NCBI GenBank assembly: GCA_013151635.1
Contig: JAADHV010000109.1
Span: forward strand, 1-64,000
Origin: Deltaproteobacteria bacterium
Lineage (GTDB): Bacteria; Desulfobacterota; Desulfobacteria; Desulfobacterales; Desulfobacteraceae
Reading direction: 5' to 3'
DNA: 64,000 nt
Shown here: piece by piece, positions 53 to 27,264 of the stretch
Layout of the letters: every line of letters starts with the position of its first letter
How positions within the stretch are numbered: position 1 is the first letter of the stretch
Made by a program: the position numbers and the translations under genes
Notes under the pieces: generated by a model
Told to the model about the DNA's origin: nothing
Database searches by the model: none
What the model saw: only the letters and a program-made list of their open reading frames with translations

Positions 53-2518
53 TCAGCTTTTAATTCTCTTATTTTCAGGATCATAGAGCGGTTTAAGGGA
101 CACTAAGGCCGGATAAATTTTCCCGGCAATATTAATTTCCCATTTACCCTGATCAATATATTTTTCATCTATTGGTTCATCAGCCTCCATCATGAATAAG
201 CCAACCGCCCCGCCAAGGGTGTAACCATAAGAAGCTGACCGGATATATCCTGCATTTTTACCATTCCGGGTAATAATTTCGGCGTAGTATAACAGGGGTT
301 CCGGATCTTTTACCAGCACCTGGGCCAGACGTCTTTTAAGCCCGCCCTGTGCCTTTTTCTTCAGGCAGGCCTCTTTGCCGATAAATCCTGAAGGTTTATC
401 AAGCTTGATTGTAAATCCTAATCCTGCCTCATAGGGGTCATCGGTATTATCCATGTCATGGCCATAATCCCTGTATCCTTTTTCCATTCTCAAACTGGCC
501 AGTGCTTTTAATCCTGCATGGGAAAGATTAAATTCCCTGCCTGATTCAACAAGGATGTCGTAAACATGGGGGGCCTGTTCCGTGGGGATATAAAGTTCAT
601 ATCCAAGTTCACCAAGATAAGTAATCCTAACTAAAATCACCCTTGCATATCCAATGGCAATCTCTTTTACATGCCTGTAGGGGAATGCCTTGCCGGACAA
701 ATCTTCCGGGGTTATAGACTGCAGTAACTCACGTGATTTCGGCCCTTGAATGTTTAACTGGGCATAAGCAGATGTCATATCCGTGACAAAGGCATGGGCA
801 TTATCCGGGATATTTCTTTTCAGCCAGGTCAATGCATGCCGATGCATGGTGTCTGTGACAACCACCATATATTTTTCTTCTTCAAGTTTTGCCACAGTAA
901 GATCAGCTTCAAGTTTTCCATCCTGGTTCAGCCAGGGGGTGTAGGTGATCCTGTTAAGCCTGCCGTCAACATTGTTTGCAGAAATATAGTTGAGCACTTT
1001 TCCTGCGTCCCGGCCCTGTACCATGAATTTTGACATAAAAGACATATCCATGAGGATGACATTTTTACGGGCAGCCTTATGTTCCGCCTCCCAGAAAGCA
1101 AACCAGTCCTCTCTTCCCCAGGAATATTTTTTAATTTCAGGTTCCTGCCCCTTTGGAGCAAACCAGTCAGCGCCTTCCCATCCACTGACATCCTTATAAT
1201 AAGCACCCTGGGCTTTCAGCCGGTCATAAACAGCGGATTTTTTAGCTCCCCTTGCTGTTTTCACGGATTTATAAGGGTAATGGCACTTATACACCATGCC
1301 AAGGGATTCAACCGTTCTGTGTCTTCTGTATTCAGGATTGTTCTGATATGTGTGCAGACGGTCAATATTAAAGCCTGTGATGTCCTCATCGGGTTTTCCG
1401 TTCATGATCCAATGGGCCATCATGCGGCCTAACCCCGGCCCCATAATAATACCCACGGAATTTAATCCGGCCGCCACAAAATAATTTTTTAATTCAGGTG
1501 CCTCACCGATGATTGCCGAAAGATCAGCTGTAAAACTCTCCGGGCCGCAGAAAAATTTTTTAATGCCAATCTCTTTTGAGATGGGAACCCGTGACATGGC
1601 TTTTTCCAGGAAAGGGCCCATTCGATCCCAGTCCGGCTCAATTTCACCAAAAGAAAAGGTCTCCGGTACCTGTTTAATTTTCCAGGGCGCGCATTTGGGC
1701 TCAAACAAACCGATCATGAGACCGCCGACCTCTTCCCTGTAATATCCATAGCGGGACGGGTCTTCCAGCACCGGCATATTTTTAGGAATATTGTCAATTT
1801 CTTCTGTAATAAGGTAATAATGTTCGGCAGCCTGGTTCGGGATATTAACGCCTGCCACATCCCCTATCTGCCTTGCCCACATGCCTGCACAATTGACAAC
1901 AGCATCGGCCTTGATATTGCCATGAATTGTTTTTACCCCGGTTACAATTCCATTCTTTTTTGTGATTCCAGTGGATGCCACCCCTTCAATAATATTTACT
2001 CCTTTATTCCTGGCACCTTTGGCAAGGGCCATGGTGCCGTCCACAGGATTTACGCGGCCATCTTCTTTTACATAAAAGCCTGCAAGCAGGTCATCTACAT
2101 TGGCTAAGGGGAAGAGTGTCTTGATCTCTTCCGGTGAAATCTCATGCACATCAACCCCGCAATACCGGTTAAATTCAGCCACACGGCGGTATTCTTCCAA
2201 ACGGTCTTTATTACTGGCGGCTTCAATAAACCCCACGGGTGTGAACCCTGTTGACAGTCCGGTTTCAGCCTCCAGGCTCGTATAAAGATCCCGGCCGTAC
2301 AAGCGCATCCTGGTTATTGTCTCAGAGGTTGATCCAAATGTCACCATCAACCCTGCCGCATGCCAGGTCGTACCTGATGTCAATTCATCCCGTTCTAAAA
2401 GTACGACATCTTTGCAGCCCATGTGACCCAGGTGATAGGCAATGGAGCAGCCGATTATACCGCCGCCGATTATAACAACATTTGCGTGTTCCGGAAGATT
2501 TATATTTTTTTTTCCCAT
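53..2518 (-). CDS. Dimethylglycine/sarcosine dehydrogenase-like FAD-GcvT protein
   Basis: An 821-residue two-part enzyme. The N-terminal half is a DAO-type flavoprotein: a dinucleotide-binding GGGIIG motif near residue 18, an acidic strand end (LLERD, about residue 43), then TSGTTWHAAGL with His53, which matches the histidine that carries covalent FAD in dimethylglycine dehydrogenase. The C-terminal half (about 430-815) is an aminomethyltransferase (GcvT) domain that in this family binds tetrahydrofolate and captures the oxidised methyl group as methylene-THF. The usual length of the family is 800-860 residues. It starts 29 bases after the stop of the pyrrolysine-type mttB and is probably co-transcribed with it. 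The inferred role is oxidation of an N-methylated glycine or a similar tertiary or secondary amine in the cytoplasm. The exact substrate (dimethylglycine, sarcosine or another methylamine) cannot be read from the sequence. Confidence 0.85.
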   Translation of the reverse strand: MGKKNINLPEHANVVIIGGGIIGCSIAYHLGHMGCKDVVLLERDELTSGTTWHAAGLMVTFGSTSETITRMRLYGRDLYTSLEAETGLSTGFTPVGFIEAASNKDRLEEYRRVAEFNRYCGVDVHEISPEEIKTLFPLANVDDLLAGFYVKEDGRVNPVDGTMALAKGARNKGVNIIEGVASTGITKKNGIVTGVKTIHGNIKADAVVNCAGMWARQIGDVAGVNIPNQAAEHYYLITEEIDNIPKNMPVLEDPSRYGYYREEVGGLMIGLFEPKCAPWKIKQVPETFSFGEIEPDWDRMGPFLEKAMSRVPISKEIGIKKFFCGPESFTADLSAIIGEAPELKNYFVAAGLNSVGIIMGPGLGRMMAHWIMNGKPDEDITGFNIDRLHTYQNNPEYRRHRTVESLGMVYKCHYPYKSVKTARGAKKSAVYDRLKAQGAYYKDVSGWEGADWFAPKGQEPEIKKYSWGREDWFAFWEAEHKAARKNVILMDMSFMSKFMVQGRDAGKVLNYISANNVDGRLNRITYTPWLNQDGKLEADLTVAKLEEEKYMVVVTDTMHRHALTWLKRNIPDNAHAFVTDMTSAYAQLNIQGPKSRELLQSITPEDLSGKAFPYRHVKEIAIGYARVILVRITYLGELGYELYIPTEQAPHVYDILVESGREFNLSHAGLKALASLRMEKGYRDYGHDMDNTDDPYEAGLGFTIKLDKPSGFIGKEACLKKKAQGGLKRRLAQVLVKDPEPLLYYAEIITRNGKNAGYIRSASYGYTLGGAVGLFMMEADEPIDEKYIDQGKWEINIAGKIYPALVSLKPLYDPENKRIKS

Positions 2519-2547: not shown

Positions 2548-4020
2548 TTAAGATTTAATGCCCATTTCCTTTTCCGTTTCCACAACAATGGACCGGATTT
2601 TGGAAAGCACATCGCGGGAAAGCGGGTCAGGGGTATGGTTCTCCAGGATAAATCTTACCTTTTCCATTGCCCTTTCATAGGCAGTTGTAGCGCCTGCCTT
2701 TTCCCAGGTTCCCCGCATTTTTCGATCAATCAATTCCGGCTTTGACTGATCTCTCATGTATTTGAATGTGTGTTTGTGCATGAGAAAATCCTTGCCCGGG
2801 CCTATCTCCTTGATAGGATCGATGGCAAGCGTATCGTCATTCACAGGGATACCCTGCAAGGTATGTTTGATCATACGCGCAAACTCACAATCTAAAACCA
2901 GTTGGCCGTAATCAAAGGTGATGCCGCTTTCAAGCATCCCCGAACCATAAATCATATTGGCACCTGCCAATGCGGGAATAAGTCCGGTAAGTGTCTTTTC
3001 ATGGCCGGTCTGGGTATCTGATATTTTGCTGTCGCCCTACTGGCCTGCCACATAACTTGGCAAAGCATAGTATCGGGCAAGCCGCGCCACAGCTCCGCTT
3101 ATCACGGCACACTCGGGTGTGCCTACACTGGCTGAGGCAAGTTTTAAATCCATGGCAGTGGTAGAACTGCCGTAAATCACCGGGGCCCCTTTTCTTGTAA
3201 GCTGTGCCAGGGTGATTCCGGACAGGACTTCAGCATTGTGGTTCACAAGGGTTCCAGCAAGGGTGACAGGGGAAGTGCCGCCTGCCATGGCCATGGATAA
3301 AATATTACAGACAACATTATTTTTCGCAGCTTCCATGATAATTTCACAGCAGTCGGAAATCAATTTCAAAGGACTTACAGGACAGGTTGTAAAAGAGACA
3401 ATGGGCCTTTTTTTAAATTCTTTTATGCCGCCTGCAATGGCTTCACCCATTTGAATGATTTTCTTTAAAAACCTGCCATTGCCCGGACCGAATGCACAAT
3501 GTTTGGTGGTATTGGTCAAATATGCCTCAGCATTGTGCAGCGGTACTGTTTCCTGGTTTACATCATGGGCGCCAAGCGCTTTTTCACAAAAATCAATTTC
3601 AGGAAGGTAGTCAATTACCCTTGCAGAATCAATTAAATCCTTTTTTACCGGGGTCCTGTTCTCTCCTGTATAAGGATCGTTTACCATTACGCCTTCACTG
3701 AAATTGGTAAAATAAACCCTGGTATTTTCAAGAACAATATCATGTTTCGGGTCACGACCGAAAAGGACCACTTTTGGCGGCGCGGACCGGATGGCATCTT
3801 CCACCATATATGGAGGGATCTTTACATTTCTGGTGTTCCGGTCAACAACAGCCCCTCCGTCTTCAAAACTGTCAAGAGCGTTTTCATCTTCTATAAAAAC
3901 GCCTGTTTCATTGAGGACTTCAAGGGTTCCGTAATGAATCTCCTCCAGCTCGTCATCTGTCAGGATATTGAGACTCAACCCGGAGCCAAGCTTTCTTCCT
4001 GCATGAAAATTACGTTTCAT
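2548..4020 (-). CDS. mttB: Trimethylamine methyltransferase MttB, pyrrolysine-containing (amber codon 328)
   Basis: Two open frames (2548-2970 and 3037-4038) are in the same frame and separated only by a TAG at 3037-3039; together they make one 490-residue protein, the usual length of MttB. The residues before the amber codon (YVAGQ) and after it (GDSKISDTQTGHEK) are conserved MttB sequence, and the region between the TAG and the next apparent start is also typical of the family (GLIPALAGANMIYG). In methanogen MttB this amber codon encodes pyrrolysine, which activates trimethylamine for methyl transfer to a corrinoid protein. I chose the ATG at 4020 because GAGGTG lies 8 bases before it; a TTG at 4038 would start inside that ribosome-binding region. 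The dehydrogenase-like gene follows 29 bases downstream. No MttC corrinoid protein or pyl gene is in the window. Confidence 0.93.
3037..3039 (-). other. In-frame amber (TAG) codon, predicted pyrrolysine site
   Basis: The triplet is CTA on the plus strand, TAG on the coding strand, at codon 328 of mttB. The frame stays open on both sides for the full family length, and protein similarity to MttB continues directly across it. This is the pattern expected for pyrrolysine insertion rather than for a disrupted gene, since a frameshift or decay would not leave a single in-frame amber at this conserved position. Confidence 0.9.
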
Positions 4021-4295
4021 CAGATTTTCACCTCGCAACTATTGGGTTAAAATTTCCAGCCTCCTTTATATAAGCCTTAAAAAGAGGTTTGTTTATTGAT
4101 TTTACTTAAAACTTAAAAAAAATGCGTTGCTACCAATTGAGCAACATTTCTGCTTGACATTTCTACAAAACCTTTATAGGTTTGTCAATAAAAATTGTTC
4201 AACAATCTATGATTGACAAAAAAATACCAAAGAAACCCGGCGGTATTTCCCACCGGGATAATAATAATCAATAGAAGATGAACAGGAGGCCCACC
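4021..4295. promoter_or_regulatory. Divergent control region between mttB and the ABC transporter
   Basis: An AT-rich 275-base region with ribosome-binding sites at both ends (GAGGTG for mttB, AGGAGG at about 4284-4290 for the transporter). It contains several inverted repeats: GTTGC/GCAAC around 4126-4145, AAACCT-TTAT-AGGTTT at 4168-4183, and TTGTTcAACAA at about 4195-4205. A TTGACA box lies at 4154-4159, but I could not place a convincing partner -10 box. A further CCCGG/CCGGG pair surrounds 4236-4257. The palindromes could be operators, for example for the GntR regulator encoded at 6862, but that link is inference. Confidence 0.5.
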
Positions 4296-5147
4296 ATGAA
4301 AAAAATGCTTTTAATCTTTAGTCTTGCTTTAGCAACTTTCCTTATGTTTGCCGGAAGCGGAATTGCAGGGAATTCAGCCCTTGATGAAATTTATGCGGCA
4401 AAAACCATTGTTGTTTCAACTGATGCCAATTATGCACCGCAGAGTTATCTGAACGATAAAGGAGAACTGGAAGGATTTGATATAAGTGTTGCAAAAGAAG
4501 TAGCCAGGCGCCTTGGTGTAAAGGTAAAATTCATCACGCCGGACTGGGATCTTATTACAGCAGGAAAATGGGGAAAAAGATGGGATGTTTCAATTGGCTC
4601 CATGACCCCTACCAAAGAAAGAAAAAATGCCCTTTTATTCACATTGCCCTATTATAGTTCACCTGCCCAGTTTGCCATACATAAAGACAACAAAACCATA
4701 AAGACCCTTGCCGATCTTGCAGGCAAACGAATCGGGGTTGCAAGTGAAACCACCAATGAAAGATACCTTCAAAAAGACCTTTCCATTGAAGGTGTTAAAA
4801 TTGTTTACCAGAACTGGAAACCGGGCGAGATAAAAACTTATCCCACTGATGCCAACCACATAGAAGATCTGTCCCTGGGCGACGGGCTGAGGCTGGATGC
4901 TATTTTTTCATCCAGACAGACCATTGCAGAAGCAATCAATTCAGGATGCGGCAATGGCTGCCCCTTAAAAATGCTGGGGGAACCTCCTTATTATGAGCCG
5001 CTTTGCTTTGCCCTTGATAAAAGCCGTGCCAAAAGCCAGACTCTTGTTGACAAACTAAATAAAATCATCAGATCCATGTATGACGACGGTACACTGGTCA
5101 AGCTGTCAAATAAATTCTATCATACGAATTTGATCCCCAAGTTATAA
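4296..5147 (+). CDS. ABC transporter substrate-binding protein, family 3 (polar amino-acid type)
   Basis: A 283-residue periplasmic binding protein. Residues 1-24 form a signal peptide (MKKM followed by a hydrophobic stretch ending in GSGIAG). The mature part has the family-3 hallmarks: STDANYAPQSYL near the start, GELEGFDISVAKEVARRLG, and TPTKERKNALLFTLPYY. ATG 4296 is preferred over 4278 because AGGAGG lies just upstream of 4296 and inside the longer version. It is the first gene of an operon with a permease and an ATPase. Known family members bind amino acids, opines and related amines. The MttB-family gene at the end of this cluster suggests a quaternary or tertiary amine or a methylated amino acid, but that is inference. 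Confidence 0.88.
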   Translation: MKKMLLIFSLALATFLMFAGSGIAGNSALDEIYAAKTIVVSTDANYAPQSYLNDKGELEGFDISVAKEVARRLGVKVKFITPDWDLITAGKWGKRWDVSIGSMTPTKERKNALLFTLPYYSSPAQFAIHKDNKTIKTLADLAGKRIGVASETTNERYLQKDLSIEGVKIVYQNWKPGEIKTYPTDANHIEDLSLGDGLRLDAIFSSRQTIAEAINSGCGNGCPLKMLGEPPYYEPLCFALDKSRAKSQTLVDKLNKIIRSMYDDGTLVKLSNKFYHTNLIPKL

Positions 5148-5162
5148 TATAAGGAAGAATAA

Positions 5163-6026
5163 ATGGAAGCCGAAACATTGCAACAGGGCAAGGCTGGCAT
5201 ACCCGGGGAAGCAAAAAAAGTTTTAAAACAGATTGAGGCCCGCAAAGCCAGGTACCGGCGAAAGCTGATCGTGTCCTTTAGTATGTTAATTCTTTTTATG
5301 ACAGCTACCCTGGTTGTTCTGGGACTTGATTTCAAATTCATGTTAAAATGGCTTCCCTTTATTCTTGAAGGCGGGGGATATACCTTGCTGGTTGCTTCTC
5401 TGGCCATTACCCTTGCCTGTTTTCTTGCAGTTATAGGTGCGCTTGGCAGGCTTTCTAAAAACCCTGTTTTAAACAGCATTGCCACGGCCTATGTTTCCCT
5501 GATACGGGGTACCCCGCTCCTGGTACAGGTTTACATGTGGTACCTTGCCCTTCCCCAGATCGGCAAATCCCTGGAGGAACTTGGAATTACAGGGGTTCAG
5601 CGTTTACTCACCCTTCCTGCGGTTCCGGCCGGGATACTGGCCCTTGGAGTCTGTTACGGTGCATATATGACAGAAACCGTCCGTGCCGGTATCCAGTCCA
5701 TAAAAATCGGGCAGACAGAAGCTGCAAAAGCCCTTGGCATGACAAATACCCAGACCATGAAAAGAGTTATTTTCCCCCAGGCATTAATGGTTATTATCCC
5801 ACCGGTTTCCAATGATTTCATTGCCATGATCAAAGATTCCTCCCTGGTTTCCTTAATGGGCGTATGGGAACTGAGTTACAGGGCCATAAAAATCGGGCGG
5901 CGGTATTTCCAGTCCCTGGAGATGCTGATCCTGGTGGCATTGATTTACTGGGTCATGTGCGCGCTTTTGCAGCTTGTCCAGGAGAAAATTGAAACCTATA
6001 TGGCAAGGGGCGACAGGAGAACATAA
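5163..6026 (+). CDS. ABC transporter permease, HisM/GlnP family
   Basis: A 287-residue inner-membrane permease with an unusually long charged N-terminus (about 38 residues) before the first membrane segment. Several hydrophobic helices follow, and the ATPase-contacting EAA loop is clear around residue 180 (EAAKALGMT...VIFPQA). The conserved family sequence IRGTPLLVQ is present near residue 115. It starts 16 bases after the binding-protein gene, with GGAAGA as ribosome-binding site. One permease gene suggests a homodimeric channel. It forms the uptake system with its two neighbours. Confidence 0.9.
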   Translation: MEAETLQQGKAGIPGEAKKVLKQIEARKARYRRKLIVSFSMLILFMTATLVVLGLDFKFMLKWLPFILEGGGYTLLVASLAITLACFLAVIGALGRLSKNPVLNSIATAYVSLIRGTPLLVQVYMWYLALPQIGKSLEELGITGVQRLLTLPAVPAGILALGVCYGAYMTETVRAGIQSIKIGQTEAAKALGMTNTQTMKRVIFPQALMVIIPPVSNDFIAMIKDSSLVSLMGVWELSYRAIKIGRRYFQSLEMLILVALIYWVMCALLQLVQEKIETYMARGDRRT

Positions 6027-6861: not shown

Positions 6862-7530
6862 ATGGTTATTAGTTTAGAAGACCAGGCCTACAATAAAATT
6901 AAAGTCGCCATAAGCAAAGGGTATGTTAAAAAAGGAAGCAAGCTTAAAGAAATCCCTTTATCCAAGACCCTTGGCATGAGCAGGGCAACAGTAAAAGGGG
7001 CTGTCAAACGCCTGGTATTTGAAGGCCTGGCTGAATATTCACCCAATAAGGGCGCATCCGTGGTTGATCCCAGCCTGGAAGAGATCAAGGAGTCTTTCCT
7101 TGTACGAGCCCAGCTTGAAAAAATGGCTGCATCCCTTTCTGCGGAAAAACTTGGCCCTGATGATTTTGACTGCCTCCATAAGCTGATCCGGAAGGAAAAA
7201 GATATTTTCAAAGCAAGGAAACTTGACCAATACTATGAAATCAACAATGCCATACACCTGAAAATTGCTGAAAAATCAGGGAACAGGGTATTGGTCCATT
7301 ATATAAAGGAACTTTTGCAGAAAACAACCATCTACCTGATCTTGTTTGATCCTTTTTACCAGTTGCTCGATACCAATAATACCTCTCCTCTGGAACATCT
7401 GAAAATCGTTCAATGGCTGGAGAAAAAAAATGGAGACAAGGCAGGCCTTGCCATAGAGCATCATTTAAAGAGCACCATGAGCGGTATTGATGTAGAAAGA
7501 CTTTTTCCGGATGATTACCTGGCCGTTTAA
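6862..7530 (+). CDS. GntR-family regulator, FadR (FCD) subfamily
   Basis: A 222-residue protein with an N-terminal winged helix-turn-helix (about 1-70, with SKTLGMSRATVKGAVKRLVFEGL) and an all-helical C-terminal ligand-binding domain (about 80-210). In the FCD class the C-terminal domain normally carries metal-binding histidines; His residues are seen at HLKIAE and in the EHHLKS segment. It sits between the ABC transporter and the second MttB-family gene, so it is the natural candidate to control uptake and use of their substrate. A possible extended -10 (TGGTATAAC, 6807-6815) lies in the 70-base gap before it. Confidence 0.85.
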   Translation: MVISLEDQAYNKIKVAISKGYVKKGSKLKEIPLSKTLGMSRATVKGAVKRLVFEGLAEYSPNKGASVVDPSLEEIKESFLVRAQLEKMAASLSAEKLGPDDFDCLHKLIRKEKDIFKARKLDQYYEINNAIHLKIAEKSGNRVLVHYIKELLQKTTIYLILFDPFYQLLDTNNTSPLEHLKIVQWLEKKNGDKAGLAIEHHLKSTMSGIDVERLFPDDYLAV

Positions 7531-7565
7531 AATAAAAAAAATTCACTCTTTGCTGGAAAGGAGAA

Positions 7566-9002
7566 ATGAAATCCATGCCTGGACTGAAACCTGAAATAAG
7601 TGTCATGACCCTGGAACAGGTACAAAAGGTTCATGACAATGCCCTTTTTATCCTTGAAAATACCGGAATTACAGTTGATGACCGGGATGCCCGCCATCTG
7701 TTTGAAAAAGCCGTGGGAAAACAGAACAAGGGCCATTGCATCATGATTCCAAAAGACCTTGTAAACTGGGCAACAGATGCGGCCCCGGAAAAAATAAATA
7801 TTTATGACCGCCTTGGCAACCCCTGTTTTACTCTTTCCGGGGATGGAAACAGGGATGCTGTTTTCGGGATCGGGGTCACCAATCTTTATTATCAGGACCC
7901 GTTTGAAAATGAAATCCAGCCTTTTTCCAGGCTTCACATGGAAAAAGCAACAAGGCTCGGGCATAACCTTGATGCCTTTGATTTTGTTTCAACCCCGGGG
8001 GTGCTCCAGGATCTTTCGCCTGACACAGCAGACCTTTTTGGTGTCCTTGAAATGATGGCCAACACCACAAAGCCACTGGTGATACTTATTTCCGGCCGGA
8101 AGTCCTTTAATCCTGCGCTGGATCTTTTTGAACACCTGCATGGTGACATCGCTTCCCGACCTTTTATCATGCCATATGTAAATCCAATTACCCCCCTGGT
8201 TTTAAATTCTGAAACAACAAGAAAAATGGATGTGACAATCAAAAGAGGACTGCCCCTTATTTTTTCAAATTACGGCATGTCCGGTGCCACCTGTCCCATC
8301 ACGCCTGCCGGGACGCTTGCCCTGCTCACGGCAGAGCTTCTGGCAGGACTTGTTTACAGCCAGCTTGTCAAAGAAGGCTCACCTATTATATTGGGAAGCC
8401 TTCCTGCTGCTTTTGACATGAAAAATGCCGGGAGCTTTTACTCTCCTCATACATTGCTTTTAAATCTTGCCTGTGCCCGGATGATGAACTTTTACAAAAT
8501 CCCCCACTGCGGGACTTCAGGCAGCGGTAACGGATGGGGCGCAGATCTTCTTGCCGGCACAACTCTTTGCATCAACCATTTTACAAGCTGTCTTGGCAAT
8601 GCCGGTATGGTCCCTTTTGTGGGCGGGAATTTTGATTCCCTTGTTTTTTCCCCGGAGCTTGTGGTCTATGCTGATGACGTGATCCGCCAGTCAAGAAAAT
8701 TTGCTTCCGGGTTTTCTCTGGATGATGAAGCCGTGGGATTTTCAGATATATCAGATATAGGGCCTGGCGGAAATTTTCTTTTATCAAATCTTACCGGAAA
8801 ATATTTCAGGGACTCCACGTTTTCAAGCAGTATCTGGCCGTTTTTAACCCTTGATAAATGGAAGGCAAAAGGCAAACCCACGGCCAAAAAAATTTTAAGG
8901 GAAAAAACCATTGAACTCCTGGATAATCAAAAAACGCCAAAAGACCATAATGAAATCCTGTCAAAAGGGGAAGCTTTGATTAAAACCAGGGCCTGCACCT
9001 GA
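7566..9002 (+). CDS. MttB-family methyltransferase without pyrrolysine
   Basis: A 478-residue member of the trimethylamine methyltransferase family (Pfam MTTB). It has an uninterrupted frame: at the region matching the amber codon of mttB it reads GTSGSGNGWGADLLAG. Characterised members of this non-pyrrolysine branch demethylate quaternary amines such as glycine betaine, proline betaine or carnitine and pass the methyl group to a corrinoid protein; which substrate applies here is unknown. A good AAGGAG ribosome-binding site precedes ATG 7566. It is linked to a GntR regulator and an ABC importer on the same strand, a plausible uptake-plus-demethylation unit. Its last few codons overlap a relic similar to an antiporter C-terminus, so the natural C-terminus may have been altered. 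Resemblance to the pyrrolysine protein is moderate only. Confidence 0.85.
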   Translation: MKSMPGLKPEISVMTLEQVQKVHDNALFILENTGITVDDRDARHLFEKAVGKQNKGHCIMIPKDLVNWATDAAPEKINIYDRLGNPCFTLSGDGNRDAVFGIGVTNLYYQDPFENEIQPFSRLHMEKATRLGHNLDAFDFVSTPGVLQDLSPDTADLFGVLEMMANTTKPLVILISGRKSFNPALDLFEHLHGDIASRPFIMPYVNPITPLVLNSETTRKMDVTIKRGLPLIFSNYGMSGATCPITPAGTLALLTAELLAGLVYSQLVKEGSPIILGSLPAAFDMKNAGSFYSPHTLLLNLACARMMNFYKIPHCGTSGSGNGWGADLLAGTTLCINHFTSCLGNAGMVPFVGGNFDSLVFSPELVVYADDVIRQSRKFASGFSLDDEAVGFSDISDIGPGGNFLLSNLTGKYFRDSTFSSSIWPFLTLDKWKAKGKPTAKKILREKTIELLDNQKTPKDHNEILSKGEALIKTRACT

Positions 9003-10322: not shown

Positions 10323-11668
10323 TGGCAAGAATACTGGTCATAGATGATGAACCTTCCATCCTTGAATCCTTGAACATGTTTCTCACGGAAAAAGGGCACA
10401 CGGTTTTTACGGCACAAACCGGGGCAACAGGCCTGGATCTTTTTACAAAAAAAATATTCCAGGTGGTAATCATGGATATCAGGCTTCCGGATTTCAACGG
10501 GCTGGATATTCTCCAAACCATGATCAAGCAGAAAAAAACATCAAAAATCATCATGATTACGGCTTTCCAGGATATGGAAACCACGATTGCTGCCATTAAA
10601 AGGGGCGCATTTGACTATATTCACAAACCCCTTGATGTGAATAAAATTGAAAAAGCGGTAAACCGGGCCATCAATATCCTTGAAATTGACAGGGAAACCC
10701 CATCCCTTGAACCAGCAAAAGAGACCTCTGCCAACCCTTGGGTGATCATTGGCAAGAGTGAAAAGATGCGCAAAATATTCAAGATGATGGGCCTTGTCTG
10801 CACCAGCCATGTCAACGTGCTTCTCCAGGGCGAAACCGGTACGGGAAAAGAATTGATTGCAAGGGTGATTCACTTGAACAGCTCGTTTAAAGAGGACCCT
10901 TTTGTTGTGTTTGACTGCTCAGCTGTTGTGGGCAGCCTGCTTGAAAGCGAACTTTTCGGCCATGAAAAAGGGGCATTTACAGGGGCGGATGCCACGACCA
11001 GGGGAAAGATAGAACAGGCAGGGAACGGCACCCTGTTCCTGGATGAGATTGCCCAGCTCCCACTGAGTATCCAGGGGAACCTCCTGGGTTTCCTTCAACG
11101 AAGGGAATATACAAGGGTTGGCGGCAGCAGGACCTTAAAATCCCGATGCCGGATCATTGCTGCCTGTAATTGCGACCTGGCCGGCAAGGTGGATAAGGGG
11201 CTTTTCAAAGAAGACCTTTTTTACCGGCTCAAGGTCTTCATGATTGAGGTGCCGCCACTCAAGGAAAGGCTTATGGACACACCTTTACTGGTGGAACATT
11301 TCTTACGCAAAATCAACCGGGAACTTGGGACCATGGTGACCAAGCTCCAGGACGGTGTCATGGAAATACTGGTCAACCACACCTGGAAAGGCAATGTCAG
11401 GGAACTTGAAAATACCATTGCCCAGGCTCTTGTGGGGTGCAGGGGTAATGTCCTGCTCAAGGATGATATTGATAAGCTGTTGAATATGAAAAACAGATTG
11501 CCCCAGATGGGACTTGAATCGTATTCTCTGGCCCATGTTGAAAAAATACATATCACAAGAACCCTTTCCCAGCTGCAATGGAATAAAACCAAGGCAGCCG
11601 GCCGGCTCGGCATAACTTTGCCGACCCTACGTTCCAAGATACGAAAATATAAAATCAAACCTGCCTGA
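10322..11668 (+). CDS. NtrC-family sigma-54-dependent response regulator
   Basis: A 448-residue regulator with a receiver domain (acidic pocket DDE, phospho-acceptor Asp52 in IMDIRLPD), an AAA+ central domain (Walker A GETGTGKE, intact GAFTGA loop, Walker [12 protein letters not shown]) and a Fis-type DNA-binding end ([21 protein letters not shown]). The intact GAFTGA means it should contact sigma-54. It is coupled to the kinase just upstream. A near-consensus sigma-54 promoter lies about 150 bases after its stop codon, ahead of the Liv transporter operon, which is its most likely target. Confidence 0.93.
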
Positions 11669-11773
11669 CCCGTCATATTTTTTTCTCTCACTGGAAAATA
11701 ATTTTCTAGTCTATCGCAAAAAAAATCGGTTTTAGTTAATAAAATATTTTTAAATCACTGGCAAATCCTCTAT

Positions 11774-11794
11774 AGAATGAAGGGGATTCATTCT
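11774..11794. promoter_or_regulatory. Inverted repeat upstream of the sigma-54 promoter
   Basis: AGAATGAA-gggga-TTCATTCT is a perfect 8-base inverted repeat with a 5-base loop, 23 bases upstream of the -24 box. It is followed by a run of T, so it could be the terminator of the regulator gene or an enhancer-type site for that regulator. A second, imperfect palindrome lies at 11690-11710. The sequence alone does not decide between these roles. Confidence 0.5.
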
Positions 11795-11816
11795 GTTTTT
11801 TATATTCATTTTATTC

Positions 11817-11832
11817 AGGCACGGGGTTTGCA
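11817..11832 (+). promoter_or_regulatory. Sigma-54 promoter for the Liv transporter/CoA-ligase operon
   Basis: AGGCACGGGGTTTGCA matches the -24/-12 consensus TGGCACG-N4-TTGCA at every position except the first. The GG (11818-11819) and GC (11830-11831) are exactly 12 bases apart. It lies 32 bases before the ATG of the small Fis-like gene and directly downstream of a gene for an NtrC-type activator. Confidence 0.8.
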
Positions 11833-11864
11833 CATAAAAAATTCAAACCACCTTGGAGCCGAAT

Positions 11865-12035
11865 ATGAAAATAAAATCTTTAAAAGAGAGTGAAAAAGAC
11901 CACCTGTTAACCGTTCTTGAAAAAACCCACTGGGATCTTGAAAAAACTTCCCGTCTTTTAAAAATATCTCTGCAACAGGTTAAATCCAAAATCAAAGGAT
12001 ACGGAATCCGCCGGCCTGATCCACATGGATCTTGA
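11865..12035 (+). CDS. Small Fis-type helix-turn-helix protein
   Basis: A 56-residue protein consisting of little more than a Fis-like DNA-binding domain: ESEKDHLLTVLEKTHWDLEKTSRLLKIS followed by a recognition-helix-like QQVKSKIKGYGI. It resembles the C-terminal domain of NtrC-type regulators without the receiver or AAA+ parts. GGAG precedes ATG 11865 by 7 bases. It is the first gene after the sigma-54 promoter, 44 bases ahead of the substrate-binding protein. It may modulate the same promoter or compete with the full regulator, but that is inference. Confidence 0.7.
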   Translation: MKIKSLKESEKDHLLTVLEKTHWDLEKTSRLLKISLQQVKSKIKGYGIRRPDPHGS

Positions 12036-12079
12036 ATATTATCAATAACGATAATGTATTTACTTTAAGGAGATTACCT

Positions 12080-13348
12080 ATGAAGCACATCAGATTAAGA
12101 GTTTGTCTTACCCTTTTTGTATCCATGGTTTTATGCTTATGGGGGACCCATGCATTTGCTGAGAAACCCATTATCTTAGGGGCGCCTTTATCTGTCGCCT
12201 ATCTTTACGGATGGGATGCAGAAAGGGGCATTAAACTTGCCGTGGATGAAATCAATGCCGCAGGCGGTGTCAATGTAAAGGGTAAAAAAAGGCCCTTTAA
12301 GGTTGAAGTCATTGACACCCGTGACCTTGAGCCGGGTGTCCCGGTGAGTGAAGCCTTAATGGCAGTTGAAAGACTGATATTGAATAAAAAAGCTGATTTT
12401 ATCCTGGGCGGGCCTAACAGATCTGAAGCTGCTCTTGCCGCCATGTCTTTATTGTCAAAATATAAAAAAATCTCCATTGTGAGCAGCGGTGTTTTAACCC
12501 CCAAGTATCATAAAATGGTTGCCAAGAATTATGACAAGTTTAAATATTGTTTCAGGATTCACGGGGAAGCGGTTAACCTGATAGGTGAAATGATTGAAAA
12601 CTTTGCAGACCTGAAAAAAAAATATGGTCTGACCAAGGTATTTATCATTGCCCAGGATGTATCCCATGCAAGGGGAGCAGCAAAGGTCATGGGAAAAGTC
12701 GCCGGGAAAAATGGATTTGAGGTAACCGGAACTGAAATCTTCCCCACAGGTACCACAGACTTTTCCCTGGCATTGCTAAAAGCCAAAGCAACAGGGTCTC
12801 AAATCATTAATATCTGGATGGACATGCCGGAAAGCGCCATTCTTTTAAAACAATGGTATGACCTTAAAATACCGGCACTGCCTTTTGGTTCCACACTGGC
12901 GGCTGCTGAACAACCTGGTTTCTGGAAAGCCACAGGCGGGAAAGGCCAGTATACATTGTGCAACGTGGTGAATGCCGGTAATGCACCCTCTGATGCAACC
13001 GAATGGACCATGAAATTTTACAATGCCTATGCTAAAAAATGGGGGGTTGAACCGGAAGGTCTTGGATCATCCAGTTCCTACATGGCTGTCTATGTATTAA
13101 AAGATGCCATTGAAAAAGCAGGGACACTCGAATCAGATCAGGTGATTACTGCCCTTGAAAAAACCGATATAATGGGGGTTTACGGAAGACTCAGATTTGA
13201 TCCCAAAAGCCACCAGGTCATCGCTGCCAAAGACCCAAAGGACGGGGCTGTGGGCTCTATCCTCCAGTGGCAGAATGGCAAGCGGGTTGTGGTATATCCA
13301 AAGAGTATTGCCAAAGGCAGTATTCAACTGCCGCCCTGGATGAAGTAA
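12080..13348 (+). CDS. Branched-chain-type ABC transporter substrate-binding protein
   Basis: A 422-residue periplasmic binding protein of the Leu/Ile/Val (family 5/6) type, starting with a signal peptide ending around HAFAEKP. The start at 12080 is supported by AAGGAG 8 bases upstream; a longer frame from 12032 has no such site. The mature domain has the family sequence GIKLAVDEINAAGGVNVKGKK near residue 50. It is followed by genes for two permeases and two ATPases. Family members carry amino acids, amides, urea, and aromatic or dicarboxylic acids; an acyl-CoA ligase at the operon end points to an organic acid here. Confidence 0.88.
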   Translation: MKHIRLRVCLTLFVSMVLCLWGTHAFAEKPIILGAPLSVAYLYGWDAERGIKLAVDEINAAGGVNVKGKKRPFKVEVIDTRDLEPGVPVSEALMAVERLILNKKADFILGGPNRSEAALAAMSLLSKYKKISIVSSGVLTPKYHKMVAKNYDKFKYCFRIHGEAVNLIGEMIENFADLKKKYGLTKVFIIAQDVSHARGAAKVMGKVAGKNGFEVTGTEIFPTGTTDFSLALLKAKATGSQIINIWMDMPESAILLKQWYDLKIPALPFGSTLAAAEQPGFWKATGGKGQYTLCNVVNAGNAPSDATEWTMKFYNAYAKKWGVEPEGLGSSSSYMAVYVLKDAIEKAGTLESDQVITALEKTDIMGVYGRLRFDPKSHQVIAAKDPKDGAVGSILQWQNGKRVVVYPKSIAKGSIQLPPWMK

Positions 13349-21663: not shown

Positions 21664-23283
21664 TCAGTTTCTTTTTTCCAGAATCTTTAAAACCTCTGCA
21701 CACTTGTTTTCCGCCTTTGTTTTCATATCTTCCGCCAGCTTGACAGTCTTTTCTTTAAACTTTTCATCCAAAATATCTGCCATATTAATCATGACATTTC
21801 TATAAGCTCCCCATATGCCTGTTTCCAAGGCTTTTGCCCCGACTTCAACATCGGACTTTGATGCAGGATTTCCGTATTCGGCAATTTCCAGCATGGCTCC
21901 CCAGGCAGCATCGGCAAGCTTCATAGTAGTTAAGGGAACATCAATAGCCTTTTTAAGCCCCTGCTGTAATTTTTCAAGTTTGAATTGCTTTTGATCTTTA
22001 CTATCCTCTGGAAGACGCATGGCTTCCACATAGTCTTTAAAGGCATCAGTATCTGCATCAATCATGGGAATAAGGGATTTTGACGCATGATGAAGGACCG
22101 GAATAATTTCACGCATTTTTGAATCAATGTCTTCAAATTTGCGAACACCCAAAGTCAATTTTGCCGCCATGGAACCAAGCCCTGCACCCATGGCTGCTAT
22201 GGCTGCAGAAGCAGAACCGCCTCCCGGGGCTGAACTTCTTGATGCCACTTCTTCAATAAATCCCCTGACTGTCAATCCTGCCAGGGGCTCTTTTTTTTCT
22301 TCTGCAATGATATACTCGATAATTTTCTCTTTTGGATTAAACAACGCGACAGAATTCAGCCCCAGACGTTCAATGGCAAGTCTGATCTTCTGGTCTTCGT
22401 CCAGGATAAAAAGATTTTCTTTTTCAATATAATAATCTGCTGCCATGAGGATGGCTTCCAGAGGAACCACGCCAACGATTTCCGAGCCTGTAACTGCAAC
22501 ATTCAATTTTTCCGCATCTTTTTTAACTTCTTCAAACAGGACATGGGGAGGGGTGACATGATAGTTATTCAGGTTAACTGTAACCTGGGCAAGATTATAT
22601 TCATCAACGTACCATCCCATGCCTTTGACATCCGCAAGTCTTCCGGGCTCACCCGGGCCACGGCCGGCCTCCCTTAGATTCAAGGCGATTCTATGGGCCT
22701 GGTTGGGTGTGGAAAGAAGATTTACATTATAGGCAATCAGAAAAAATCTTGCGCCTGTTACGGTTGCACCCCACTCAGGAACAAACCGGGCAGGCCCGAA
22801 ATCAGGTTTCCAGTCTCTGGTTGTGATCCTGTCTTTTATGCCTTCATACTGCCCTTCCCTGATCTGGGGAAGTTTTTTACGATATTCAAATTTTGCGGAT
22901 TCCTCATACAGGTAAATTGGAACGTCAAGTTCTTTTGCAGCTCTTTTACCAAATTCCCTGGAAATTTCAATGCATTCTTCCATGGTCACACAGGCCACAG
23001 GAATAAAGGGACAGACATCCATGGCACCCATTCGGTGGTGGTCACCCTTATGGGTTCTCATATCAATTTTCTGTCTTGCCACACGGGCTGCATTCAGGGC
23101 CCCTTCCACAACAGCTTCCGGGGTTCCCACAAAAGTATATACGGTTCTATTGGCAGATTTTCCCGGATCGACATCAAGAAGACGGCAGCCTTTGGTCCTG
23201 CGAATCGCATGGGCTATGGCTTCAATGGTTTCTTTATTCTTGCCTTCGCTGAAATTGGGTACACACTCGACTATTTTTTTCAT
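21664..23283 (-). CDS. ftcD: Bifunctional glutamate formiminotransferase / formimino-THF cyclodeaminase
   Basis: A 539-residue fusion, the usual length of FtcD. Residues 1-300 are the formiminotransferase (VPNFSEGKN start, HKGDHHRMGAMDVCPFIPV); residues about 345-539 are the cyclodeaminase (SSAPGGGSASAAIAAMGAGLGSMAA). Together they move a formimino group from formiminoglutamate to THF and close it to methenyl-THF with release of ammonia, linking histidine breakdown to the one-carbon pool. No other histidine-degradation genes are nearby. Its neighbours (corrinoid activators, thiolase) fit a wider one-carbon theme. No strong ribosome-binding site is seen near ATG 23283 beyond AAAGG. Confidence 0.92.
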   Translation of the reverse strand: MKKIVECVPNFSEGKNKETIEAIAHAIRRTKGCRLLDVDPGKSANRTVYTFVGTPEAVVEGALNAARVARQKIDMRTHKGDHHRMGAMDVCPFIPVACVTMEECIEISREFGKRAAKELDVPIYLYEESAKFEYRKKLPQIREGQYEGIKDRITTRDWKPDFGPARFVPEWGATVTGARFFLIAYNVNLLSTPNQAHRIALNLREAGRGPGEPGRLADVKGMGWYVDEYNLAQVTVNLNNYHVTPPHVLFEEVKKDAEKLNVAVTGSEIVGVVPLEAILMAADYYIEKENLFILDEDQKIRLAIERLGLNSVALFNPKEKIIEYIIAEEKKEPLAGLTVRGFIEEVASRSSAPGGGSASAAIAAMGAGLGSMAAKLTLGVRKFEDIDSKMREIIPVLHHASKSLIPMIDADTDAFKDYVEAMRLPEDSKDQKQFKLEKLQQGLKKAIDVPLTTMKLADAAWGAMLEIAEYGNPASKSDVEVGAKALETGIWGAYRNVMINMADILDEKFKEKTVKLAEDMKTKAENKCAEVLKILEKRN

Positions 23284-23397
23284 ACCTTTACTTTCCTTTA
23301 TACTATTTGGAAATTAATATATTTGTCCTTGTTTTACCATAAACCGGGTAAGTTGTATATACAGGTATGTTCTTTTTGTTTCAATCCTTTCTAAAGG

Positions 23398-23502
23398 CTA
23401 AAAAATAGATAACCCTATCTCGTAATAGTCAAAACCGGCACTTCTGCCGCCAAGGTGCTCAGCAAGGAAATCTTCGAGTTTGCGATAAAAAACCAAAACC
23501 AT
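23398..23502 (-). pseudogene. Short remnant resembling the C-terminus of an S9-type peptidase
   Basis: A 34-codon frame reading MVLVFYRKLEDFLAEHLGGR then a short tail. The FY...FLAEHLGGR pattern resembles the end of S9 prolyl-oligopeptidase family proteins, where it closes the hydrolase domain. No upstream part of such a gene is present, so it is probably a deletion relic. A genuine small gene is less likely. It accounts for part of the gap between ftcD and the activator genes. Confidence 0.35.
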
Positions 23503-23556
23503 GATAGCCCAGTTTATTTTTTTTCATTTTAACATCGCCTCATTTTTTAAAAAAAG

Positions 23557-25104
23557 TTAAATTTTATTGTCCAGAGATGGAAATCTTGCCCGGTCCGTGT
23601 GGGGATAGAACTTTGCCCCGGAAAACATATTCATGAACTCCTGGTTGACGTTCAATTCAATATATGTGATGGACTGCCGGATATTCATGATTCTCTCAAA
23701 GGCATCCGGATTTTTCAAAAGCTCTTTTGCACCGCCAAGGGAGCTGTTCCCCAGGACTTCAAAAGTATTTACCGGGATATCCGGGAGCATGCCGATGGAT
23801 ATGGCAGATACAGGATTAATGAATGATCCGAAAGTTCCTGCCACGTAAAATTTCTCCAGGTCTTCAAATTCAAGACCTGCTGTGTTTTTCACAATCACTT
23901 CCAGGATGGTATACATGGCAGCCTTTGAGCTGGTTAAAGAATCCAGGTCCGCCTGGCTCAGGCAGATCGACTCCCCTGTATCTGAACCAGCTTTGTCAAC
24001 AAGGACAAAATACATTATCCCGTCTTTTTTAAACAAGGCTTTCCCACAGGCATGACTTGAAAGTTTTCCCCTGATATCAATCCGTCCGGATAAAAAAAGA
24101 CTTGCGGCAAGATCAATCATCCCGGACCCGCAGATACCGACTGGCTTTTTCCCGTCAATGGTGTGACTCTTAAGATCACCGGTATCAGGATCAATCCATA
24201 CCTTATCAATCACGCCCGGTTTTGCCGTCATGCCCATTTTACTCATCCCGCCTTCAAGAGCCGGGCCGGCAGCACCTGCACAGGCAATGAGGAAATCATT
24301 GTTTCCAACCACTATCTCTGCATTGGTGCCTACATCCACCATGAGACAGGGTTCGTGTTTTTCATCAAGGGCTGAAAAAAGAATTCCCGCTATCAGGTCA
24401 CCGCCAAAATATGATCCGATATTGGGAAAAAGGAAGACCACGCCGTTTTCATTGATCCTGAGATTCAAGTTTCCTGCCGGCTGGGTATCCGGGATATTCA
24501 CACAGGGGATATACGGTTCTTTGATGATCCAAAAAGATTCAATTCCTAAAAATAAATGGGTCATGGCAGTATTGCCGGCACAGGTTACAAGATAGATGTC
24601 CTCTTTTTTGCATCCATGTTTTTCACAAAGAACCGATAAATTCAGGTTAACCGCGTCAATGACCAGGCGGTTAAGTTCAAAGACCCCGTTTTCCCGGTTG
24701 GAATAATGAATCCTTGCAAGGACATCAGGCCCGATTGCAGCCTGAGGGTTATCAAATCCTGTCTCACCAATATCCTTTCCTGTTTCAAGATCGACGAGTG
24801 CGATTACAATTCTTGTTGTGCCAATATCAATTGCAGTTCCAAGAACCGCTTTTTTGATTACAGGCTCTAAAAGGTCCACAAGTATCCAGGAAGATAAATC
24901 TTTGAACAGAACTGCTTTTGCCTTGAAATTCCATGATCTTAATTTTGAGGGCAAACTTTTAAGGATCTTGAGCGGAATCCTGACATGATCAGCATCAAGG
25001 TCTTTTTTAAGAGCCTGCTCCAGTCTCTGGGCATCTGCCGTATTATCGCTTAGACTTGGATTCTCAACTAAAATTGTGCGGACAAATCCTTTTTCCTTTA
25101 TCAT
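23557..25104 (-). CDS. RACo/RamA-like ASKHA protein lacking the [2Fe-2S] domain
   Basis: A 515-residue relative of the reductive activators of corrinoid proteins (DUF4445 family). It carries the ASKHA ATPase motifs AIDIGTTRIVIALVDLETG near residue 92 and MVDVGTNAEIVVGNNDF, plus AGTFGSF near the end. Its first 75 residues align with the linker after the ferredoxin domain in the neighbouring full-length protein, so the [2Fe-2S] part is missing rather than diverged. Its ATG overlaps the TGA of that gene (ATGA), implying coupled synthesis. It may form a mixed dimer with its partner or regulate it; that is inference. Without its own cluster it should not act as a complete reductase. Confidence 0.8.
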   Translation of the reverse strand: MIKEKGFVRTILVENPSLSDNTADAQRLEQALKKDLDADHVRIPLKILKSLPSKLRSWNFKAKAVLFKDLSSWILVDLLEPVIKKAVLGTAIDIGTTRIVIALVDLETGKDIGETGFDNPQAAIGPDVLARIHYSNRENGVFELNRLVIDAVNLNLSVLCEKHGCKKEDIYLVTCAGNTAMTHLFLGIESFWIIKEPYIPCVNIPDTQPAGNLNLRINENGVVFLFPNIGSYFGGDLIAGILFSALDEKHEPCLMVDVGTNAEIVVGNNDFLIACAGAAGPALEGGMSKMGMTAKPGVIDKVWIDPDTGDLKSHTIDGKKPVGICGSGMIDLAASLFLSGRIDIRGKLSSHACGKALFKKDGIMYFVLVDKAGSDTGESICLSQADLDSLTSSKAAMYTILEVIVKNTAGLEFEDLEKFYVAGTFGSFINPVSAISIGMLPDIPVNTFEVLGNSSLGGAKELLKNPDAFERIMNIRQSITYIELNVNQEFMNMFSGAKFYPHTDRARFPSLDNKI

Positions 25105-27038: not shown

Positions 27039-27264
27039 TGTTACATCCTTTATTTTAAAAATATCGTTACAAAAAATTTTGAAATTGTGAAAAGTATAAA
27101 CATTCTCCCACCTGTTTGGCAAGTTAAGAGATCTTCTATTTTTAAAAATTGTAATATAAGTCATAAATTGGCATTGAATTTTTTAAATCTTTATGGAAGT
27201 ATACTAAGGATTTGTCGCTAAAAATAATTTAGTAAATATAACAGATTCATCAAAAGGGGAACAA
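27039..27264. promoter_or_regulatory. Divergent promoter region, activators / lactate-type operon
   Basis: An AT-rich 226-base region. On the plus strand, TTGTCG (27212-27217) and AATATA (27235-27240) are separated by 17 bases and could form a sigma-70 promoter for the rightward operon. The spacer holds a small inverted repeat CTAAA/TTTAG. No promoter for the leftward genes stands out. Confidence 0.4.

Follow-up and report, generated by a model that had tools for sequence, protein, structure and literature searches.

We find that a 64,000-nucleotide stretch of the genome of a deltaproteobacterium (the window) very probably contains a working bacterial mttB that encodes pyrrolysine (Pyl) at an in-frame TAG codon. 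This reading follows from the conservation of TAG at the Pyl position across the MttB family and from the presence of a complete set of pyl genes in the same genome.

The TAG codon of mttB

The gene and its internal TAG are:

2548–4020, minus strand: mttB, for trimethylamine:corrinoid methyltransferase; 490 codons up to TAA, with TAG in frame as codon 328; TIGR02369
3037–3039, minus strand: TAG codon, predicted Pyl decoding; aligned to residue 334 of 7xcl/7xcm; TAG in 69 of 70 homologues

The frame runs on the minus strand from an ATG at 4020 to a TAA at 2550–2548, and the TAG at 3039–3037 is its sole internal stop; the plus strand of 2548–4020 has several stops. A GAGG stretch that resembles a ribosome-binding site lies ahead of the gene (4034–4031). 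An earlier note on this DNA had argued that two apparent genes here are one mttB, interrupted only by the TAG at codon 328, with family sequence on both sides of it, and that gene callers split the gene in two. All of this is borne out. The listing of open reading frames has separate entries for 3037–4038 and 2548–2970, which belong to the single frame from 4020 to 2548, and the read-through protein gives one match to TIGR02369 that covers profile positions 2–469 of 469 and scores 746.9 bits (the curated cut-off is 525 bits). It also matches PF06253 (315.8 bits).

The closest solved chains, 7xcm and 7xcl, align with almost all of the protein, at about 420 bits. We take these two entries to be the structures of the paper PMC9842639. 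The codon-328 TAG aligns with residue 334 of both chains, with no gaps around the site, and residue 334 is described as Pyl334 (PMC9842639). The TAG thus stands at the known Pyl position; a TAG elsewhere in the alignment was one of the two outcomes that the earlier note had named as refuting its reading. The 103 nt from the TAG onwards fold no better than shuffled sequences (z 0.17), and we therefore claim no insertion element.

Homologues came from a single genome-contig scan (52 loci) and from the host's own family (86 genomes). Of the 114 distinct rows, two with unread stretches were left out; the other 112 could be read at the site, where 76 have TAG and 36 a sense codon. The nearest named homologues, at 91–93%, are from Desulfobacula metagenome-assembled genomes and Desulfospira, and the host is probably a sulfate reducer akin to Desulfobacula. 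At or above 45% identity to the window's MttB, 69 of 70 distinct homologues have TAG at the site and one has TCG. Sense codons appear below this line, the nearest being GCA in L118 (about 45%). The TAG-bearing homologues come from several phyla, and the conservation of TAG in 69 of 70 homologues excludes chance or error as its source. Two loci (L047 and L061) have two in-frame TAGs each inside the aligned mttB frame. Close kin of the deltaproteobacterial Pyl mttB also occur in records named for other phyla, namely Phycisphaerales (L050) and Aminicenantes (L056 and L063), which suggests transfer or a binning error.

Selection acts on both sides of the codon. From the TAG to the first possible restart there are 22 codons, and over these codons 15 relatives have 76 synonymous versus 7 non-synonymous codon differences, so the frame is translated through the TAG. 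Estimates of dN/dS are 0.025–0.052 before the TAG and 0.066–0.130 after it for 8 of 12 relatives; the other 4 have saturated synonymous sites before the TAG. The part after the TAG is less constrained than the part before it, yet it is clearly protein-coding and under purifying selection.

The idea that TAG is a very rare stop codon is ruled out. In a small sample of 45 window genes picked by hand, 5 end in TAG, 26 in TAA, and 14 in TGA. Beyond the five TAG codons, the next TAA or TGA is 1, 3, 5, 34, or 94 codons further on.

It is very improbable that UAG ends a first protein and that a downstream restart gives a second one. ORF finders do see two frames, and partial termination at UAG is expected in any organism that uses Pyl. 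Against this, the 22 codons before the restart are conserved as protein, which is explained by read-through and not by restarting. Furthermore, in the solved MttB, Gly110 (before Pyl) and Tyr364 (after Pyl) both act on Pyl (PMC9842639), which implies that the two parts form one active site.

The cis peptide between Gly110 and Thr111 is described as helping to hold water on the Pyl imine, and Gly110 was reported to be 100% conserved among Pyl MttBs in a 66-sequence alignment, as was Tyr364 in all Pyl MttBs (PMC9842639). The window's MttB is like the solved protein (7xcl/7xcm) in having its Pyl site in the same place and in keeping Tyr364, as do all 76 TAG-bearing proteins compared, itself among them. 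In contrast, it has Ser-Glu at residues 114–115 (in the region of 3679–3696), where the solved protein has Gly110-Thr111. Across the 76 TAG-bearing proteins, the Gly110 position is Ser in 47 and Gly in 29, and the Thr111 position is Glu in 62. This wider sampling contradicts the reported invariance of Gly110, and residue 110 does not define the TIGR02369 family. The 47 proteins with Ser110 provide a test for the current active-site model.

Some MttB homologues of the family genomes have a sense codon for His, Ala, Val, or Leu where Pyl would stand (L112 at 7168–8628, L113 at 10986–12467, and L114–L122). The sense-codon homologues of L112–L122 fall inside the TAG-bearing part of the tree, and in L112 and L113 they come immediately after a TAG-bearing mttB. 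A tree that holds all TAG rows together was rejected (p-AU 0.02, from quick trees with long branches; the test used 76 rows, after the removal of 9 named long rows, up to 15 near-duplicates, and all rows that had unread stretches or scored below 150 bits). This pattern suggests that Pyl was lost in some MttB paralogues. Among the matches listed for the family genomes, seven TAG-less MttB homologues exceed the Pyl-MttB cut-off. Non-Pyl MttB homologues of a possible betaine type are common in these genomes.

Pyrrolysine genes and their link to mttB

The host genome (G000) is a draft of 4.21 Mb in 136 contigs and is 95% complete; the window lies on its contig C33. The earlier note had predicted a pyl system elsewhere in the genome, and a search for the pyl genes recovered the complete set on contig C49. 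Read in one direction, C49 encodes tRNA-Pyl, PylSn, a corrinoid protein, PylB, PylC, PylD, PylSc, and a RACo/RamA-like activase. The tRNA gene, pylT (C49:119–191), has the anticodon CTA and was identified as tRNA-Pyl by ARAGORN. All five Pyl proteins exceed their NCBI curated cut-offs: PylSn matches TIGR03912 at 129 bits (cut-off 51), PylSc matches TIGR02367 at 293 bits (cut-off 178), and PylB, PylC, and PylD score 477, 400, and 251 bits. The corrinoid protein is below all NCBIfam cut-offs (TIGR02370 gives 191 bits versus 215) and passes the Pfam cut-offs for its domains. Because the NCBIfam cut-offs are not reached, its pairing with MttB rests on position. The activase is likewise below the cut-offs of the NCBIfam models that it matches and above those of Pfam for its domains.

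Going by the matches listed for the 86 family genomes, 25 have both a TAG-bearing MttB and PylSc, 5 the MttB alone, 3 PylSc alone, and 53 neither (Fisher p = 1.2e-13, which should not be taken literally as the genomes are related). These counts reach down to weak MttB matches, and TAG-bearing MttBs with low scores could be missed. The five genomes with the MttB alone are drafts of 420–1180 contigs, of which three are rated 95–96% complete. In G041, which is 95–96% complete and in which PylSc was not found, PylSn is at a contig end. G033, G051, and G063 have PylSc (a piece of it in G051) without a TAG-bearing MttB among the matches listed; these may be cut assemblies or may have other Pyl genes.

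These data bear on two other explanations of the TAG. That UAG is read as another amino acid by ordinary suppression, with Pyl unused, is highly unlikely given a tRNA-Pyl with a CTA anticodon, all five Pyl proteins, and the co-occurrence of PylSc with the TAG-bearing gene across the 86 genomes. A decaying or misassembled gene, with the TAG a nonsense mutation or an error of sequencing, might be suspected in a draft of 136 contigs. This can be dismissed with near certainty given the same TAG in 69 of the 70 homologues at 45% identity or more, from several phyla, purifying selection on both sides of it, and the complete pyl set.

If mttB is a pyrrolysine-encoding gene, then by the established biochemistry of the MttB family, UAG 328 would be read by tRNA-Pyl. 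PylB, PylC, and PylD would make the Pyl, which the split PylSn/PylSc synthetase would load onto this tRNA. Trimethylamine would bind to the imine of Pyl, which would present a methyl group to the corrinoid protein that is encoded inside the pyl cassette. The RACo/RamA-like activase would keep the corrinoid protein reduced, and the methyl group would pass from the corrinoid protein to the folate pathway.

The host genome has six matches to PF06253, one of which is a TAG-bearing MttB. Profile searches of the genome for MtmB and MtbB (PF09505) gave no match, so mttB is the only Pyl gene seen there among the three known methylamine families. We also considered a dedicated second methyltransferase near mttB and rejected it, as there is no PF00809 match in the window or on C49. 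Elsewhere in the genome, PF00809 matches adjoin three other MttB homologues (on C61, C76, and C121).

The gene directly downstream of mttB, after a gap of 29 bp, is:

53–2518, minus strand: FAD/folate amine dehydrogenase of the dimethylglycine dehydrogenase family; DAO, FAO_M, GCV_T, and GCV_T_C domains

The cultured Desulfospira joergensenii DSM 10085 (L031, 91% identical), a Desulfobacula sp. (L042), and L033 share the gene order mttB, dehydrogenase, etfB, etfA, and pyl genes. In L038, the order is mttB, dehydrogenase, etfB, etfA, and pylB, with no PylSn or tRNA-Pyl found. L032 and L040 have pyl genes behind the dehydrogenase but no etfBA, and L044 has tRNA-Pyl there. Pyl genes or tRNA-Pyl thus lie behind the dehydrogenase in 7 of the 14 dehydrogenase-type relatives that have sufficient downstream sequence. 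No pyl genes stand there in the 7 other readable relatives (L030/L113, L034, L035, L039, L041, L049, and L065), which rules out a universal linkage of pyl genes to mttB.

For the host genome, the evidence favors the linked arrangement. C49 opens with the final 33 codons of an EtfA-like frame (ending in ...DKDAPIFSKCDYGILGDIFDVVPVLTEKL), which are nearly identical to the EtfA end ahead of the tRNA-Pyl stretch in L042, L031, and L033. Furthermore, a search of the host genome with the EtfB of L042 gave no close match (38% at best), as would follow from a gap of about 1.6 kb in the assembly. We consider it likely that C33 and C49 abut and that the pyl cassette lies just to the left of the window's edge. 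By synteny, mttB, the dehydrogenase-like gene, etfBA, and the pyl cassette probably form one run on the same strand that is cut by the contig edge. Within the host assembly, just the last 33 codons of the EtfA-like frame are seen; etfBA and the contig join are not in it. Because a TAG codon would then be upstream of the pyl cassette in an apparent single operon, poor decoding of mttB could reduce the expression of the cassette, which would be a built-in feedback.

The EtfA-like frame ahead of tRNA-Pyl on C49 (L024:1–191) itself ends in TAG. If that TAG were read as Pyl, the frame would continue through the tRNA gene.

The gene slot behind mttB

The protein encoded at 53–2518 combines an FAD oxidoreductase and a folate-binding aminomethyltransferase in one chain (PF01266, PF16350, PF01571, and PF08669). 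It matches mitochondrial dimethylglycine dehydrogenase (5l46) at 441 bits over nearly its full length. Mitochondrial dimethylglycine dehydrogenase passes electrons to electron transfer flavoprotein (ETF) and one-carbon units to folate, and members of the family are known to act on dimethylglycine and sarcosine. Dimethylglycine dehydrogenase (5l46, 4pab, and 4p9s) and dimethylglycine oxidase (1pj5) match the window's protein in both its TWHAAG stretch and its folate-binding half. Unlike those enzymes, the window's protein is encoded directly behind a Pyl mttB, and some relatives add etfBA.

In related loci, the same slot behind mttB holds the gene for MtbB, the Pyl dimethylamine methyltransferase (PF09505). 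We surveyed this slot for 84 distinct TAG-bearing mttB genes, 37 of which are at least 75% identical to the window's. Among these 37, the next gene is the dehydrogenase in 23, MtbB in 6, and something else in 2 (L043 and L045), while 6 loci are cut, which leaves 31 readable. For the 47 less similar genes, MtbB is next in 12 and something else in 31, and 4 are cut. Six of these 31 (L066, L068, L069, L072, L075, and L076, from Bacillota, Chloroflexota, and archaea) instead have MtbB directly upstream of mttB, and L124, L125, and L150 also belong to the 31. In a quick MttB tree with some weak forks, which took in 43 of the 84 genes, the dehydrogenase and MtbB labels need 2 changes among 39 labelled rows.

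Of the 15 MtbB (PF09505) matches in the family, 14 have one TAG and the remaining one is a short piece. MtbB occurs in 9 of the 86 family genomes, all of them among the 30 with a TAG-bearing MttB. Of the 21 other genomes with a TAG-bearing MttB, the dehydrogenase stands behind mttB in 17, a contig end interrupts the locus in 3, and in one (G081) the dehydrogenase does not appear at the best mttB. At least 4 of the 9 MtbB genomes (G031, G037, G060, and G078) have both MtbB and the dehydrogenase. This rules out a genome-wide exclusion between the two, and the exchange is therefore one of the slot and not of whole genomes.

Behind the TAG-bearing mttB of L045 (3120–5072) and, in part, of L043 (7798–8415) is a flavoprotein that resembles old yellow enzyme. 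Among solved structures, 2,4-dienoyl-CoA reductase (244 bits) and NCR (238 bits) match it better than trimethylamine dehydrogenase (210 bits), and the flavoprotein is below all the curated cut-offs listed. This is suggestive of a third kind of slot enzyme.

The slot exchange suggests an oxidative replacement for the use of dimethylamine. Together with the near full-length kinship to dimethylglycine dehydrogenase, it leads us to propose that the dehydrogenase-like protein might strip further methyl groups from the dimethylamine that MttB produces, in place of MtbB; we put the chance of this at a little under even. Against this proposal stand the known substrates of the dehydrogenase family, the frequency of possible betaine-type MttB homologues in these genomes, and the relatives that keep both enzymes. 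More tentatively, the whole would be a hybrid pathway: MttB would remove the first methyl group by means of pyrrolysine and a corrinoid, and the remaining ones would be taken from dimethylamine by an ETF-linked, folate-dependent flavoprotein that stands in for MtbB.

On the other side of mttB are:

4126–4145, strand not assigned: candidate operator of the FCD regulator, a palindrome between the divergent genes whose 6-bp arms (GTTGCT..AGCAAC) match perfectly
4168–4183, strand not assigned: palindrome AAACCTATAAAGGTTT; candidate operator
4278–5147, plus strand: ABC transporter solute-binding protein family 3; PF00497; beside mttB in many relatives
5163–6026, plus strand: ABC transporter permease; PF00528
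6030–6791, plus strand: ABC transporter ATPase; PF00005
6862–7530, plus strand: GntR/FCD-type regulator, probable regulator of the locus; PF07729 FCD; in several relatives
7566–9002, plus strand: second MttB-family protein, non-Pyl; Ser codon AGC at the Pyl position; TIGR02369 210.3 bits

The second MttB-family protein is under the TIGR02369 cut-off of 525 bits, and its sequence around the Pyl position is HCGTSG-S-GNGW. The dehydrogenase-like gene might serve the breakdown of glycine betaine, with dimethylglycine and sarcosine coming from the protein encoded at 7566–9002, and be unrelated to dimethylamine. We give this close to an even chance. The 53–2518 protein clearly belongs to the dimethylglycine dehydrogenase family, a non-Pyl MttB-like gene lies in the divergent operon, and a comparable gene is called a putative glycine betaine methyltransferase in PMC8318568. 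On the other hand, relatives of the 7566–9002 protein are found beside Pyl mttB in dehydrogenase-type and MtbB-type loci alike: a related non-Pyl MttB-like gene (51–55% identical to the window's) is also present in L144, L154, L047, and L051, where MtbB is in the slot. This gene therefore does not explain the slot exchange. In addition, a dehydrogenase of the same family is upstream of the distant TAG-bearing mttB genes of L124, L125, L150, and the cut locus L153 (their MttBs are only 54–56% identical to the window's), and the first three have etfBA downstream.

Of the two candidate operators, the palindrome at 4126–4145 is weak, being present in the window and in L042 among 10 intergenic regions compared. 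The one at 4168–4183 is identical in L033 and one base off in L031 (in the same comparison of 10 regions). Further along the window (21664–27164) are one-carbon genes: a formiminotransferase-cyclodeaminase and two RACo-type corrinoid activases in a row.

Relation to known loci and implications

This kind of locus is already published: Kivenson et al. (2021) described a Pyl-trimethylamine locus in marine Deltaproteobacteria related to Desulfobacula (PMC8318568), and the window's mttB adds another example. Their locus, like ours, has a UAG-bearing mttB (there at codon 327 of 485) and a full pyl set, with an amino-acid-type solute-binding protein, permeases or an ABC transporter, a regulator, and a non-Pyl MttB-family gene nearby. 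Most of the Deltaproteobacteria surveyed there also have a Pyl dimethylamine methyltransferase (PMC8318568); in contrast, our host genome has no match to PF09505. The words flavoprotein, sarcosine, and operon are absent from the main text of that paper, and a dehydrogenase or ETF partner is not discussed under those words. We found no description of the exchange of partners behind mttB in the consulted passages of PMC8318568 or in the titles and opening lines of abstracts from a literature search that took in few subscription journals. The additions that our analysis suggests are the probable pyl cassette at the window's left edge, the exchange of MtbB and dehydrogenase in the slot, and Ser at the position of Gly110.

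Splitting the gene call hides the capacity to use trimethylamine in the annotation. Such bacteria are thought to compete with methanogens for trimethylamine (PMC8318568). If our reading of the slot exchange is correct, then an enzyme that depends on a 22nd amino acid gave way, at the same place in the operon, to one that can do without it, and the reason for which a cell maintains an entire coding system for a single residue would become testable. If the hybrid pathway is correct as well, then the host would be keeping the whole pyl machinery for one known codon in its genome.
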